Below, piece after piece: positions 3,791 to 17,313 of a stretch of DNA of 24,663 nt. Source of the DNA: a virus; IMG/VR virus record IMGVR_UViG_3300027754_000420, positions 1 through 24,663 of that record; one strand, given 5' to 3'. The notes under the pieces are model-generated. The model saw nothing but the letters and a program-made list of their open reading frames with translations, searched no databases and was not told the origin of the DNA. Made by a program: the position numbers and the translations under genes. Position 1 is the first letter of the stretch, and the number at the start of each line of letters is the position of its first letter.

Positions 3791-4074
3791 TTGCTCACCC
3801 GGTAAAGCCAAAGCCCGCGCTCGACGTAACGCCTGGAAACCGTGAACCCGTACCGCCGCAAGTCCCGCAATCGCGCCGATACGCTCGCCTCGGGGTCGCC
3901 CGTCAGCCCGGCAATCTGCTTCAGGCCGCGCTCTACCCCGTCAATCATTACGTCATGCACGCGCTGGCACTGCTCGTTAAGCCGTTTGCCGTCTCGGGTG
4001 GCGTTGAATGTAACACCGAAATACTTGGGCGGCTCCGGCGGACGCCATGACAGGAGGTCGATCTGTTCGCTCAT
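3787..4074 (-). CDS. Winged-helix-like DNA-binding protein
   Basis: The 95-residue protein has a small helix-turn-helix or winged-helix pattern: QCQRVHDVMIDGVERGLKQI (about 36-55), then AGLTGDPEASVSARLRDLRR (helix, turn, recognition helix) and a YGFTVSRRYVERGLWLYRV hairpin resembling a wing at the end. Proteins of this form occur in phage replication and modification operons. DNA binding is likely and the target is unknown. The ATG at 4074 overlaps the methyltransferase stop as ATGA, and its own stop overlaps the DnaA-like start, so translation is coupled through the operon. Confidence 0.7.
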   Translation of the reverse strand: MSEQIDLLSWRPPEPPKYFGVTFNATRDGKRLNEQCQRVHDVMIDGVERGLKQIAGLTGDPEASVSARLRDLRRYGFTVSRRYVERGLWLYRVSK

Positions 4075-4880
4075 GCCGCCACCTGTTGCATGATGGCGCG
4101 GCCAATCATTTCCGGGATTTGCGGGACGACGGCGTTGCCTAGGCCTTTAAGTCGGTCCACCCGAGAGGGAACCCCATAAGCCACTCGACCCACATCGGGT
4201 TCAATGCGCCATTGGCTTCCGATGCTCCCGCCGCATGAGTCAGCATGAATTGATTTTGCGAGGTCTTGCGATAGGTGGCCCGCGAATCCCCAGCTTGTGG
4301 CGTCGGCCACATCACGCGCCCCGCCAGCTTCGATTTCTTGGAGACTTTCTGCCAATCCACATTTACTCCAGAGTCCTTGTGGTCCCGACTCGTTGGGGTG
4401 GGCCACGACCCAAAGGCGGTCCCGGCGGTGAGGGGCACCAACGGCGGAAGCTGGAATGCAATGCCACTCTGCATCGTACCCGAACGAGGCCAAGTCTCCG
4501 AGTACGTCGCCAAGCCCTCGACTAAGCAATGCTGCGACGTTTTCCACGATGACGAAACGGGGTCTAATCTCGCCAATAAGACGGGCGTACTCGCGCCATA
4601 GTCCCGACCGTTCGCCAGCGAGGCCCGCGCCGAGTCCGGCGAACGATATGTCCTGGCAGGGGAATCCGCCGCAGATGACATCAACGGCAATTCCGTCTGT
4701 TGCCAATCGCTCGGCTGTGAGGGTGCGGACATCTTCATATATCGGTACCTCGGGCCAATGCTTGCGAATTACCGCACGGGGGAATGGTTCAATCTCGCAA
4801 AAGGCGACGGTCTTCATGCCCGCCCGCTCAAGGCCAAGGCTTAAACCGCCGATGCCGCTGAAGAGGTCCAGCACCCTCAT
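4071..4880 (-). CDS. DNA cytosine-5 methyltransferase
   Basis: This 269-residue enzyme transfers a methyl group from S-adenosylmethionine to carbon 5 of cytosine. The ordered motifs are clear: motif I DLFSGIGGLSLGL (5-17), motif IV GGFPCQDIS with catalytic C75 (71-79), motif VI VENV (112-115), motif VIII GAPHRRDRLW (148-157) and motifs IX-X GLGNAVVPQIPEMIGRAI (246-263). The region between VIII and IX, where the target recognition domain lies, is short (about 85 residues) and low in complexity, so the enzyme is at the small end of the family. No restriction enzyme gene is visible, so it probably protects phage DNA. ATGA overlaps couple it to both neighbours. A second frame is open across 4139-4738. 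Confidence 0.93.
   Translation of the reverse strand: MRVLDLFSGIGGLSLGLERAGMKTVAFCEIEPFPRAVIRKHWPEVPIYEDVRTLTAERLATDGIAVDVICGGFPCQDISFAGLGAGLAGERSGLWREYARLIGEIRPRFVIVENVAALLSRGLGDVLGDLASFGYDAEWHCIPASAVGAPHRRDRLWVVAHPNESGPQGLWSKCGLAESLQEIEAGGARDVADATSWGFAGHLSQDLAKSIHADSCGGSIGSQWRIEPDVGRVAYGVPSRVDRLKGLGNAVVPQIPEMIGRAIMQQVAA
4139..4738 (-). CDS. Possible overprinted protein inside the methyltransferase gene
   Basis: A 199-codon ORF lies wholly inside the cytosine methyltransferase gene, on the same strand in a different frame. Its product contains STPVLLARLDPVSSSWKTSQ, YSETWPRSGTMQSG, FGSWPTPT, VMWPTP and LNPMWVEWLMGFPLGWTDLK. I know these motifs from many phage proteins of unknown function annotated near DNA methyltransferases. 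Because they arise from conserved methyltransferase codons (for example SWPTP from the RLWVVAHP region), the family may be a true overlapping gene or a recurring alternative-frame artefact. No strong ribosome binding site stands out at the ATG at 4738. I list it as a candidate only. Confidence 0.35.
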   Translation of the reverse strand: MKMSAPSQPSDWQQTELPLMSSAADSPARTYRSPDSARASLANGRDYGASTPVLLARLDPVSSSWKTSQHCLVEGLATYSETWPRSGTMQSGIAFQLPPLVPLTAGTAFGSWPTPTSRDHKDSGVNVDWQKVSKKSKLAGRVMWPTPQAGDSRATYRKTSQNQFMLTHAAGASEANGALNPMWVEWLMGFPLGWTDLKA

Positions 4881-8002: not shown

Positions 8003-8506
8003 CTGGCGGGGCGAGGCTAGGCGCGGCAGGGCTAGGCAGGGCTAGGCAAGGCATGGAACTACTGAGGCCAATATTCTCCAGGCGGGGCATGGCGGGGCAA
8101 GGCGAGGCGGGGCTGGGCTAGGCATGGCTTGGCAAAGCAAGGCAAGGAACTGTTGAGACCAATATTCTCGCGGCGGGGCTGGGCTGGGCATGGCTCGGCT
8201 TGGCGAGGCAAGGTAAGGCAAGGAACTACCGAGGCCAATATTCTCGTGGCATGGCAGGGCCGGTCGGGGCAGGGCTTGGCTCGGCAGGGCTTGGTAAGGC
8301 AAGGAACTACTGAGGCCAATATTCTCGCGGCGAGGCGGGGCATGGCGAGGCAAGGCGCGGTTTGGCAGGGCGAGGCACGGCGGGGCATGGCAAGGCAAGG
8401 AACTACTGAGGCCAATATTCTCGCGGCGGGGCGGGGCTTGGCGTGGCAAGGCGGGGCCAGGCAAGGCAGGGCGCGGCTTGGCATGGCAACGCAAGGCAAG
8501 GAACCA
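8003..8506. repeat. Array of NNGGC pentamer tracts and five 24-bp anchors
   Basis: About 500 bases between two genes consist almost wholly of pentamers NNGGC broken by a conserved 24-bp anchor (GGAACTACTGAGGCC then AATATTCTC). Anchors start at 8055, 8146, 8222, 8303 and 8399; a sixth truncated one (GGAAC at 8500) runs into the ribosome binding site and ATG of the DUF1064 gene. Pentamer counts before each anchor are 10, 13, 10, 11, 14 and 15, each followed by AA (AT in the first). Unit lengths are 91, 76, 81, 96 and 101, all 5n+1. A few pentamers are imperfect (AAAGC, AAGGT, CGGTC, GCGGT, TTGGT, AACGC). ORFs crossing the array on either strand are repeat artefacts. I do not recognise the element. 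Confidence 0.95.
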
Positions 8507-8824
8507 ATGAACAAATACAGAGCAAAACGAACAATCGTCGATGGCATTTCGTTCGCCAGCAAGGCAGAGGCGCGGCGGTACACTCAACTTCTGTTGCTCC
8601 AGCGAGCTGGGGCAATCGAAGGACTCGAACTGCAGCCGCGCTTGCTGCTGGTAGTGGCCAAAATAAAGATCGGCACTTATGTTGGCGATTTCCGATACCG
8701 CGACATGGTAACGGGCGACATGATCCTGGAAGATGTGAAAGGCGTGTTGACGCCGGTTTACAGGATCAAGAAGCGGCTGGTCAGAGCACTTCACGGCATC
8801 GACATTTTGGAAACGTCCGCTTAA
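8507..8824 (+). CDS. DUF1064 phage nuclease-like protein
   Basis: The 105-residue protein fits DUF1064, a PD-(D/E)XK-like phage family often found beside recombination and replication genes. Its motifs are MNKYRAKRTIVDGISFASKA (1-20), EARRY (21-25; likely metal-ligand E21), LELQPR (40-45), YVGDFRY (58-64; D61), LEDVKG (74-79; E75, D76, K78) and YRIKKRLVRALHGI (85-98). This suggests nuclease or junction-resolving activity, not demonstrated for this member. I place the start at ATG 8507, after AAGGA in the last truncated anchor of the repeat array. The frame stays open upstream to 8129, but that would add about 126 repeat-derived residues. Confidence 0.88.
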   Translation: MNKYRAKRTIVDGISFASKAEARRYTQLLLLQRAGAIEGLELQPRLLLVVAKIKIGTYVGDFRYRDMVTGDMILEDVKGVLTPVYRIKKRLVRALHGIDILETSA

Positions 8825-8843
8825 CTGAATAGAGGAGACAACA

Positions 8844-9116
8844 ATGGCAACTCTTGAAGCCCAGATTGAGAAAACACTCGATGCGCTCAAAGTGCTTTTG
8901 GACGAGGCGTATCGAGAGATCACGCGCGACGATTTTCCGGAATCCATGGACCAGACGCTGAACGACGCAGAAGAAGCATGTCAGGATGCGTCAATGCAGA
9001 TCGAGATGGGAAGCGATTTCAACGAAAGCCTTGATGTCATCATCAAAGCATTGCTGCTGATCGACAAGTGGGATCAGGACGAGGACGATAAGTTCATCAG
9101 GAAAACCGGGCTATGA
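8844..9116 (+). CDS. Acidic helical protein of unknown function
   Basis: The 90-residue protein (MATLEAQIEKTLDALKVLLD...) is strongly acidic and predicted to be nearly all helix, with heptad-like spacing of Leu and Ile that could form a coiled coil or small helical bundle. A clear AGAGGAG lies 8 bases before the ATG. Its stop overlaps the next start (ATGA). No family is recognised. The acidic, DNA-mimic-like composition is noted, but no function is proposed. Confidence 0.75.
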   Translation: MATLEAQIEKTLDALKVLLDEAYREITRDDFPESMDQTLNDAEEACQDASMQIEMGSDFNESLDVIIKALLLIDKWDQDEDDKFIRKTGL

Positions 9117-15135: not shown

Positions 15136-17313
15136 CTATCGAGCGCCCTGACGGGGCGGGTTCGTCACGCTATCCGCAGCAACACGTCCTGCTTGTTGTG
15201 CAGCAAGTATTTTTCCCAAACTGATAGCCAGACTTTCTGCCTGGTCTAATCTTGGAACTTCCGCACGAACGGCGGTTTGTACGGCGCGTTGGTTTAGTAT
15301 TGGCTGCACCACCCCGGCAAGCAATTTTAGTTTATCGGAGCCTGGGATGATTCCGCCATAATTGGCAATCATTGAAGCGGGGTTGGAATTTGATGTGCTA
15401 ACAGCAGCCCGACCTGGAATTGATGTCGCGTATCCTCCAACTCTGGCAAGGCGAGTTAATTGATCTGCTGTTTCAGATCCAAACCATGCTTCGAGTTTTT
15501 GAGGACCAAGATTACGAAGAACAGCAGCCAACGCCGCTGGCTTTAAAGCCGCATCTGAAGCAGGGTCTTCGCCAAAAGCAGCTCTTTTAATAATTGCTCC
15601 AAGCTCAGACTGCGCCGCAGTAAACGATTCTGGCGATTCTTGTTTCAATAAATTAGCAAGTCGAACACTGTCACCCGTTGGAGCACCGAAAACATACTTT
15701 TGGATAAATTTATCGGGGTTTAACTCACCCGAAGCAGCGGCTTCAAGAGCCGGAACTTGCGACTGCAATTGAAACCGCGCCCTAGCAGCATCGCGGGCTG
15801 GCGCAAAAACGTCAGGAACGTCCGCATCCATCATGGCGCGTTTGACGGAATCGCGCAGTTGCCCCAAAGCTAAGTTCGTTGTTTTATCCATCCCAACAAA
15901 CTGATTAATGACTTTGATAAGTTTGTCGGCTTCCTCAAAATCAAAAACCCTAGTTTGTTTGGTATCAAGCATCCCAAAAGATTTTATCTTGGCAACAATT
16001 GCTGATGGCACCTTATCGCCAAAATTATCTATTATTTGTGCAACGTCATAAGCTAACCCGCCAAGCGGAACGCTATAAGATTTTCCAGAACTATCACGGG
16101 CTGCTGCATATTCAGCAGTTACTTTTTTCCGTGCGACTTCATCAAAATCAGTTAAAACCTTTGCAATATTTTGTCCAGATTTAACGGCATCAATACCGCC
16201 ACCTTTTGCAATGTCAGCTATATCGGTCTGTGCCTTGCGGGTTTGAGCATTGAGGACATCCATAATTGGCTCGCCAATACCGGCAACGCCGCGAAGGTTC
16301 TGCTCTTTTGCATATTGCGATGGATCGCGGGTGATTTGACCCAAAGTTGCGGGCATTCCCGCTGCTTCAAAATCAGCCTTTCTAAGCAACGCTGCCGGAT
16401 TAAGGTTTTTCCCAGACGCAAGGGATTTAGAAACTAGATCTTTCAAGATTGCGTATTGCGCCGCTGGAATGTCGCTAATGTCTTGGCCTATCTCCCGCAT
16501 CGCTGATGCGATTACATCACCGGCCTTTTGAGTTGCTTGAACAATTCTTTCCGCGCCCTTGCCCGTTATGGTGTCAAGAGCAGCAGCCGCATATGGTTGA
16601 ATTGCGGTAGCAAGAGCTGTTATCCCTTGAATTGATTTACCGACTACTGGACCCAAAACGAGACCACCCGCCGCACCCATTCCCGTCTGTGCTGTCTTGT
16701 TGAGGAAAAAATCTTGTTGGTCTTTTTCATTTGTTATAGGAGTTAAAGCACCGCTTAATGCGCCGCCAAGCAAACCGGCACCGGCAAGCCCCAAAAGCGA
16801 ATTTCCTGCTGTTGTTGCTCGCGAAACTAGGGCAAGCGGAAGCGTTCCAACTACTTCGCCAACACCAGCAGCAACATCCCAATCTTCTGGCTTTGCGCCC
16901 GTCGCAGATCGCGCTTTTTGATAATAATCTGCTCGTTCGCGAATTGTTTTATCAATAGCCTCTGTCCCGATATCCATACCGAGAAATTTTGTATCACCGC
17001 TAAGATATTCAGCGGCTTTGTCCAATCCAACAGTGCTTGCTGCTTTCGATAAAACTTGCGGGACGATTTGACCAAAAGCATCAAGTGGGTTACGAACGCC
17101 TTGGGCAAAACGGTAAGGAACGCTAGCTGTCAACCGTTGGTCAAGCGATGGTTGCCTAGCTACGGCGGGATCCTTGGCAAGGGGTTTCCATTCCGCCCCG
17201 TCAAGCGCAAGCTTTTCCCCGGTCTGCGGGTTGACCGCTACCTTGGCCGGCACCCACTGTTCCCCTTCAAGGGTCAGGGCTTCGCCAGTTGATGGATTAA
17301 CCGCGATAGTCAT
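15136..17313 (-). CDS. Large internal virion/ejection-like protein
   Basis: The 725-residue protein opens with two tandem units of about 22 residues (AVNPSTGEALTLEGEQWVPA and VAVNPQTGEKLALDGAEWKP). It then has two Gly/Ala-rich hydrophobic segments (LLGLAGAGLLGGALSGALTP and TGMGAAGGLVLGPVVG, roughly residues 175-235) that could insert into a membrane, and long helical stretches to the end (LARVGGYATSIPGRAAVS..., AAQQAGRVAADSV). Size, membrane-active segments and a place between fibre and connector genes fit a podovirus internal protein ejected with DNA. No transglycosylase motif is seen. Coding DNA is visibly AT-richer than its neighbours except at the 5' end. ATGA overlaps the upstream stop. 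Confidence 0.65.
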   Translation of the reverse strand: MTIAVNPSTGEALTLEGEQWVPAKVAVNPQTGEKLALDGAEWKPLAKDPAVARQPSLDQRLTASVPYRFAQGVRNPLDAFGQIVPQVLSKAASTVGLDKAAEYLSGDTKFLGMDIGTEAIDKTIRERADYYQKARSATGAKPEDWDVAAGVGEVVGTLPLALVSRATTAGNSLLGLAGAGLLGGALSGALTPITNEKDQQDFFLNKTAQTGMGAAGGLVLGPVVGKSIQGITALATAIQPYAAAALDTITGKGAERIVQATQKAGDVIASAMREIGQDISDIPAAQYAILKDLVSKSLASGKNLNPAALLRKADFEAAGMPATLGQITRDPSQYAKEQNLRGVAGIGEPIMDVLNAQTRKAQTDIADIAKGGGIDAVKSGQNIAKVLTDFDEVARKKVTAEYAAARDSSGKSYSVPLGGLAYDVAQIIDNFGDKVPSAIVAKIKSFGMLDTKQTRVFDFEEADKLIKVINQFVGMDKTTNLALGQLRDSVKRAMMDADVPDVFAPARDAARARFQLQSQVPALEAAASGELNPDKFIQKYVFGAPTGDSVRLANLLKQESPESFTAAQSELGAIIKRAAFGEDPASDAALKPAALAAVLRNLGPQKLEAWFGSETADQLTRLARVGGYATSIPGRAAVSTSNSNPASMIANYGGIIPGSDKLKLLAGVVQPILNQRAVQTAVRAEVPRLDQAESLAISLGKILAAQQAGRVAADSVTNPPRQGAR

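Follow-up and report, generated by a model that had tools for sequence, protein, structure and literature searches.

Does a long open frame that lies entirely inside a phage methyltransferase gene, on the same strand, encode a second protein, or is it only an accident of the first? Among bacteria and phages, long overlaps between genes on the same strand are regarded as rare, and proof of them is difficult to obtain. The question is raised by a viral DNA of 24,663 nucleotides (IMG/VR record IMGVR_UViG_3300027754_000420, positions 1 to 24,663; referred to here in its full length as the window). Its minus strand carries, at 4071-4880, a C5-cytosine methyltransferase frame of 269 aa (frame 0, here alpha). 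Entirely within this ORF, in the +1 frame of alpha, lies an ORF of 199 aa running from ATG to TAG (4139-4738, minus strand, here beta). A preliminary description of the DNA had pointed to a same-strand frame open for 199 codons and had offered two explanations, i.e. widespread overprinting, or an annotated family that is merely an alternative-frame shadow of the enzyme. The frame is present as claimed and contains all four of the motifs named there. These had been linked there to phage proteins near DNA methyltransferases, and the family is indeed real and annotated, as phrog_1008 (E=1.5e-25).

Two reading frames at one locus

The features of the locus, with the evidence for each in brackets, are:

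4071-4880, minus strand: alpha, C5-cytosine DNA methyltransferase chain (PF00145, E=1e-40; phrog_363, E=5e-85; M.HhaI nearest to the AlphaFold model)
4386-4880, minus strand: alpha motifs I-VIII, the AdoMet and catalytic part, with FSGIGG, GGFPCQD, ENV and HRRDR (pLDDT; invariant alignment residues)
4149-4385, minus strand: alpha linker from motif VIII to motif X, without a canonical motif IX (low pLDDT; beta frame better conserved)
4074-4148, minus strand: alpha motif X, KGLGNAVVPQ... (pLDDT 94 in the last blocks; synonymous constraint near background)
4747-4751, minus strand: Shine-Dalgarno-like GAGGT within alpha, 8 nt 5' of the beta ATG at 4736-4738 (sequence and SD scans)
4139-4738, minus strand: beta, overlapping ORF of the phrog_1008 family (stop avoidance; synonymous constraint; phrog_1008, E=1.5e-25)
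4532-4552, minus strand: beta motif SSWKTSQ (alpha columns 102-119, synonymous identity up to 0.93 versus 0.26 expected)
4478-4501, minus strand: beta motif SETWPRSG (alpha columns 127-147, synonymous identity up to 0.95 versus 0.25 expected)
4394-4405, minus strand: beta motif WPTP, copy 1 (alpha columns 159-163 constrained; beta amino acids better conserved than alpha's)
4298-4309, minus strand: beta motif WPTP, copy 2 (alpha columns 192-194, synonymous identity 0.73-0.81)
4148-4204, minus strand: motif-IX-like tail of beta, LNPMWVEWLMGFPLGWTDL (alpha columns 226-242, most with a synonymous identity of 0.8-1.0)

The neighbours of the alpha/beta pair are phage DNA-metabolism genes, encoding replication initiation, a RecE-like exonuclease and an Erf-like annealing protein. 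Elsewhere in the window, two minus-strand ORFs of 301 and 725 aa (8042-8947 and 15136-17313) had no PHROG match at E 0.001.

Alpha matches phrog_363 along its length and PF00145 over profile positions 1-166 of 324 only. Residues P74, C75, E113 and N114 are invariant in the alignment of relatives, and the catalytic PC and ENV are both present. A canonical motif IX in frame 0 was found in none of 246 alphas, whereas two monomeric phage methyltransferases used as controls have one. In the AlphaFold model, pLDDT is about 83-98 over most of residues 1-160, motif X is placed with confidence (94 in the last blocks), and residues 188-241 have values below 50; this fits the earlier comment on the low complexity of the methyltransferase frame in its target-recognition part. 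The best structural match of the model is M.HhaI (Z 26), and alpha reaches both the N-terminal and the C-terminal ends of that enzyme. From its profile matches and conserved residues, alpha is predicted to be a C5 methyltransferase, though not one complete single chain, and its linker reads as a passenger of the beta frame.

The match of beta to phrog_1008 (named 'DNA methyltransferase', 329 positions) is partly inflated by the overlap with the conserved frame 0. Beta had no Pfam match, and its profile had no match among solved structures in the PDB. It consists of a variable region with WPTP repeats followed by LNPxWVEWLMGFPxGWT, which is the right place and order for the part that alpha is missing. 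The strict LNPxWVEWLMG-type pattern is present in 192 of the 246 relatives, with near-variants in most of the misses shown, and the tail of beta is the sole candidate for a motif-IX-like sequence at the locus. When the window-type tail was compared with canonical motif IX by hhalign, the similarity was not significant (a match of only 6 columns, in the wrong place); the Actinobacteria-type profile aligned in register over motifs IX-X, but with P=0.12.

Each of the 241 loci examined, on viral as well as bacterial contigs, overlaps a methyltransferase, always with the same offset between the frames. Nearly all beta matches in genomes that had not been selected for a methyltransferase also overlap one, the exceptions being fragments, which answers the question put earlier of whether homologues occur away from the enzyme. 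Three candidates for a beta without a methyltransferase (L351, L352 and L353) proved to be tails behind other reading frames and are probable recombination remnants. These tails are motif-IX-like in one frame, with motif X (GNAIVPQ or GNGVVP) in another frame in L351 and L353; the L353 tail sits behind a frame resembling an adenine methyltransferase (DPPY).

Selection on the second frame

Relatives were collected by beta (80 viral loci and 80 genome loci, plus viral loci found by profile), and a second set of 80 rows was gathered by methyltransferase N-terminal peptides only, to avoid selecting for the +1 frame. In this second set, +1 stops were plentiful in codons 0-60 and past the end of beta, and sparse in between. 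Expected numbers of stops were obtained from synonymous-codon draws in which the methyltransferase protein and the codon usage of each locus were held fixed. For 45 non-redundant methyltransferases chosen without regard to the +1 frame, there were 31 +1 stops in alpha columns 66-244 versus 303±14 expected, and most of the 31 fell in a few members with a later-starting open zone. The controls were near the null (133 versus 135 in columns 1-55; 451 versus 485 in the +2 frame), and in columns 246-262 stops were above expectation (69 versus 54). For the window alone, with the protein fixed, 6.0-6.4 stops were expected in the beta span and the probability of finding none was 3e-4.

Synonymous sites were analysed by taking pairs of relatives that share an alpha amino acid and determining how often the codon is also shared (246 non-redundant relatives). 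Codon sharing was near expectation in alpha codons 1-60, 148-156 and 245-264, and was mostly 0.7-1.0 versus 0.25-0.5 expected at many sites in alpha columns 102-119, 127-147, 157-164, 191-195 and 226-244. These constrained columns are the places of the beta sequences SSWKTSQ, SETWPRSG, WPTP, the second WPTP and LNPMWVEWLMGFPxGWTD. Over columns 157-164, 188-196 and 224-244, i.e. the WPTP and LNPMW segments, the amino acids of beta are better conserved than those of alpha; at alpha column 235, for example, pair identity is 0.28 in alpha versus 0.92 (M) in beta.

The position at which the constraint begins differs between subtypes. In 64 relatives alpha starts like MNELALFAGAGGG, and 52 of these have a +1 ATG 4 nt downstream (the ATGAATGAG double start); here beta overlaps almost all of alpha and synonymous constraint is present from the first codons on. 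In the window subtype, with a beta start near nt 142, the constraint over codons 1-60 stays close to background. Since the onset of the constraint shifts with the beta start, a DNA element is not the expected cause. A DNA-level element in place of a protein is likewise disfavoured because the constraint tracks the beta motifs and begins at the beta start in each subtype, and because beta is the better conserved of the two over the WPTP and LNPMW segments. At locus L031 and related loci (e.g. L031:2206-3018) 4 nt separate the two starts, and neither frame meets a stop for ~250-330 codons, which amounts to nearly complete dual coding.

Judged by these comparisons of codons and amino acids, both frames are shown to be under purifying selection at the protein level, and beta is very probably a real protein and not an accident of the methyltransferase frame. 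The preliminary description had held that free synonymous variation and frequent stops in close relatives would speak against its proposal; what we found was strong constraint at the beta motifs and avoidance of +1 stops. Of the two explanations that it offered, widespread overprinting is upheld, and the family as a mere shadow is contradicted by the stop counts and the synonymous sites.

A plausible start for beta can be read in the window, where GAGGT stands 8 nt before the ATG at 4738. Among the relatives listed, those of the Streptococcus type have the ATG at nt 151 and most of the Faecalimonas type at nt 154-160, and in the majority a 6-base SD match accompanies it. In the window family, 200 relatives have an upstream +1 stop; an ATG falls at nt 142-151 in 90 of them, with an SD match of at least 4 in 51 of the 90. 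The predicted start site is therefore not uniform. An ATG with an SD, and constraint that reaches upstream of motif VIII, are better explained by internal initiation than by a frameshift at that motif, and we infer that translation of beta is initiated internally.

The overlap in other lineages

The open +1 zone extends to other methyltransferase groups. Over codons 50-190, Streptococcus-type genes had 3 +1 stops versus about 188 expected (29 non-redundant genes), with synonymous constraint, and Faecalimonas-type genes had 1 versus about 186 expected (33 non-redundant genes). In both types frame 0 appears complete, with motif IX present. The +1 zone of Streptococcus/Faecalimonas-type loci (L366-L445 and L452-L531 on viral contigs; L323; L336) ends in ..SLSDILEENVPEKYFLS.. 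or ..SLSQILEAEVDEKYYLS.., ends that resemble the stretch with which, in other C5 methyltransferases, the target-recognition region opens. No open +1 zone was found in the Dcm family (87 stops versus about 110 expected in codons 100-160 of 30 genes), and these 30 genes rule out a universal property of C5 methyltransferases. As the open zone is present in some lineages and absent in Dcm, the overlap is a property of certain lineages. The N-terminal module of beta appears to be shared more widely than the motif IX tail, although the +1 similarity scores are partly shadows of frame 0. Because a +1 ORF occurs in methyltransferases that already have motif IX, this module must do more than supply motif IX, and it may form part of the interface.

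In further relatives the same pieces are arranged differently. In the mycobacteriophages Wizard007, NiebruSaylor and Dorothy, frame 0 ends just past motif VIII. Their +1 ORF, which annotators named either a second methylase or a hypothetical protein, contains an LPTP-type repeat region, a motif IX (for instance LNAAFSEWMMGW) and a motif X with GNGV. The methyltransferase of Gordonia phage Bibwit has LLPTP repeats, motif IX and motif X in frame 0 of a single chain, and this chain matches both phrog_363 and phrog_1008. In Streptomyces phage Samy one ORF follows the other, and the downstream one matches PF00145 positions 270-322 weakly (E=0.2). Within the Bibwit methyltransferase (L335:1438-3147) there is also a +1 ORF (L335:1823-2278) annotated as an HNH endonuclease, in a frame with GLIDGEG, which may be compared with the ShiLan insertion (PMC11855218). 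At L068:2818-3567, methyltransferase motif I is in the beta frame and the remainder in frame 0, the result of an indel, a sequencing error or a natural frame swap.

A predicted two-chain enzyme

An alpha without motif IX, a beta with the right elements in the right order and relatives with the same pieces rearranged together lead to the reading that beta is the missing part of the same enzyme. We consider it likely, from the sequences, that one stretch of DNA encodes both chains of a two-chain C5-cytosine DNA methyltransferase, with beta made by an internal start. Alpha would form the large domain, with motifs I-VIII, a floppy linker and a motif X that folds back onto the cofactor domain. Beta would start at its own ribosome-binding site within alpha (GAGGT-8-ATG at 4738) and supply the small domain, i.e. 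a variable target-recognition region with the WPTP repeats and a motif-IX-like end, and the two chains would then associate into the active enzyme. On this proposal beta would bind alpha and set its specificity, and the enzyme would probably protect phage DNA from restriction. The 'two protein families' of the preliminary description are thus retained in so far as the second product is real, but it seems not to be an unrelated protein: it apparently provides the C-terminal (target-recognition) part that the enzyme would otherwise lack.

It is also conceivable, though unlikely, that beta, although genuinely overprinted, serves a purpose apart from methylation (e.g. as a regulator or a counter-defence protein) and merely shares the locus. 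Such a role would suit the +1 open zone of the Streptococcus- and Faecalimonas-type methyltransferases, which already have motifs I-X in frame 0, and the lack of a Pfam family or solved-structure match for the window beta and its profile. It is harder to reconcile with a window-family frame 0 that has neither motif IX nor an ordered small domain, with homologues of beta that carry motifs IX and X where frame 0 ends early, and with a beta that is essentially never found apart from a methyltransferase.

A programmed +1 frameshift near motif VIII, fusing motifs I-VIII to the target-recognition region and motif IX of beta, would give the canonical order (I-VIII, target recognition, IX), and CCC-A is present at the junction in the window. 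We nevertheless regard a frameshift as quite improbable. The constraint is not confined to the region downstream of the shift site: it is found over codons 102-147, well before motif VIII, and one subtype shows it from the first codons, all of them positions that a shift at motif VIII would leave untranslated in the beta frame. Moreover, an ATG with an SD is at the right place, each part has an ORF of its own in the mycobacteriophages and in phage Samy, and a fusion of the window type would be without motif X. That the +1 ORF is untranslated, and is open and conserved only through the methyltransferase protein and its codon usage, can be given almost no credence: SSWKTSQ and SETWPRSG do coincide with conserved methyltransferase motifs, the phrog and HMM scores there must, given the overlap, partly reflect frame-0 conservation, and the +2 frame likewise shows some conservation, but the null with protein and codon usage fixed gives roughly ten times the observed stops, synonymous sites are frozen only at the beta motifs, beta is better conserved than alpha over codons 224-244, and the Dcm-family methyltransferases are without such an open zone.

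The proposed arrangement has a counterpart in M.EcoHK31I, a bacterial restriction-modification enzyme (E. coli, YGGCCR) whose small chain was reportedly found by Lee, Kam and Shaw in 1995 to be read in a different frame from within the gene of the large one; in the window, beta likewise overlaps alpha in an alternate frame. Of the two polypeptides of this characterised C5 methyltransferase, the larger has motifs I-VIII and X and the smaller has motif IX, and the predicted target-recognition domain was placed in the large chain (PMC3404938). The alpha of the window similarly has motifs I-VIII and X in one chain. Where the small chain of M.EcoHK31I has motif IX, beta has LNPxWVEWLMGFPxGWT in place, with a similarity to canonical motif IX that is not significant. 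Unlike M.EcoHK31I, the window gene is phage-borne, in a replication/recombination region, and our proposal puts target recognition in the variable WPTP region of beta and not in the large chain. By its layout, the window pair may be grouped with M.EcoHK31I-type enzymes. In M.AquI (CYCGRG) the catalytic motifs are in one chain, and motif IX and part of the target-recognition region are in the other (PMC3404938). That small chain includes motif X, which in the window is in alpha; Wizard007, NiebruSaylor and Dorothy are nearer to the M.AquI layout than the window is. Alternate-frame coding within a phage methylase is also seen in the ShiLan insertion, in which an HNH endonuclease is hidden (PMC11855218), but that is a mobile insertion with a homing endonuclease, whereas the window has a conserved overlap of the enzyme's own domains.

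The families to which the two frames are assigned reflect only part of this arrangement. Alpha matches both phrog_363 and PF00145, but the latter match stops at position 166 of 324 and motif IX lies outside frame 0. Beta is a member of phrog_1008 by profile, and the PHROG name is silent on its members being +1-frame ORFs without catalytic motifs. Individual annotators have already recorded both frames in some phages. In the literature library searched, no paper was found that treats the overlap as common to a whole family of phage methyltransferases, which does not establish that there is none.

The alpha/beta overlap has strong statistical support in several lineages, internal controls included. 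It explains the widely annotated and misleadingly named phrog_1008 ('DNA methyltransferase', also 'hypothetical protein' or 'Mte8-like protein'), and annotation often retains one frame and discards the other. There is a practical warning in this, as cloning such a methyltransferase from the annotated ORF with recoded codons would destroy the second chain; synonymous recoding should abolish or alter activity. On balance, the sequences favour a wider proposal, namely that a +1 second chain, started at an internal ribosome-binding site, is ancient and widespread in several large groups of phage C5 methyltransferases, supposedly complete single-chain ones among them, and is absent from chromosomal Dcm. 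If this is true, many phage genes filed as a single methyltransferase make two interlocking proteins, and in one subtype, with starts 4 nt apart, two-protein coding spans nearly the whole gene.
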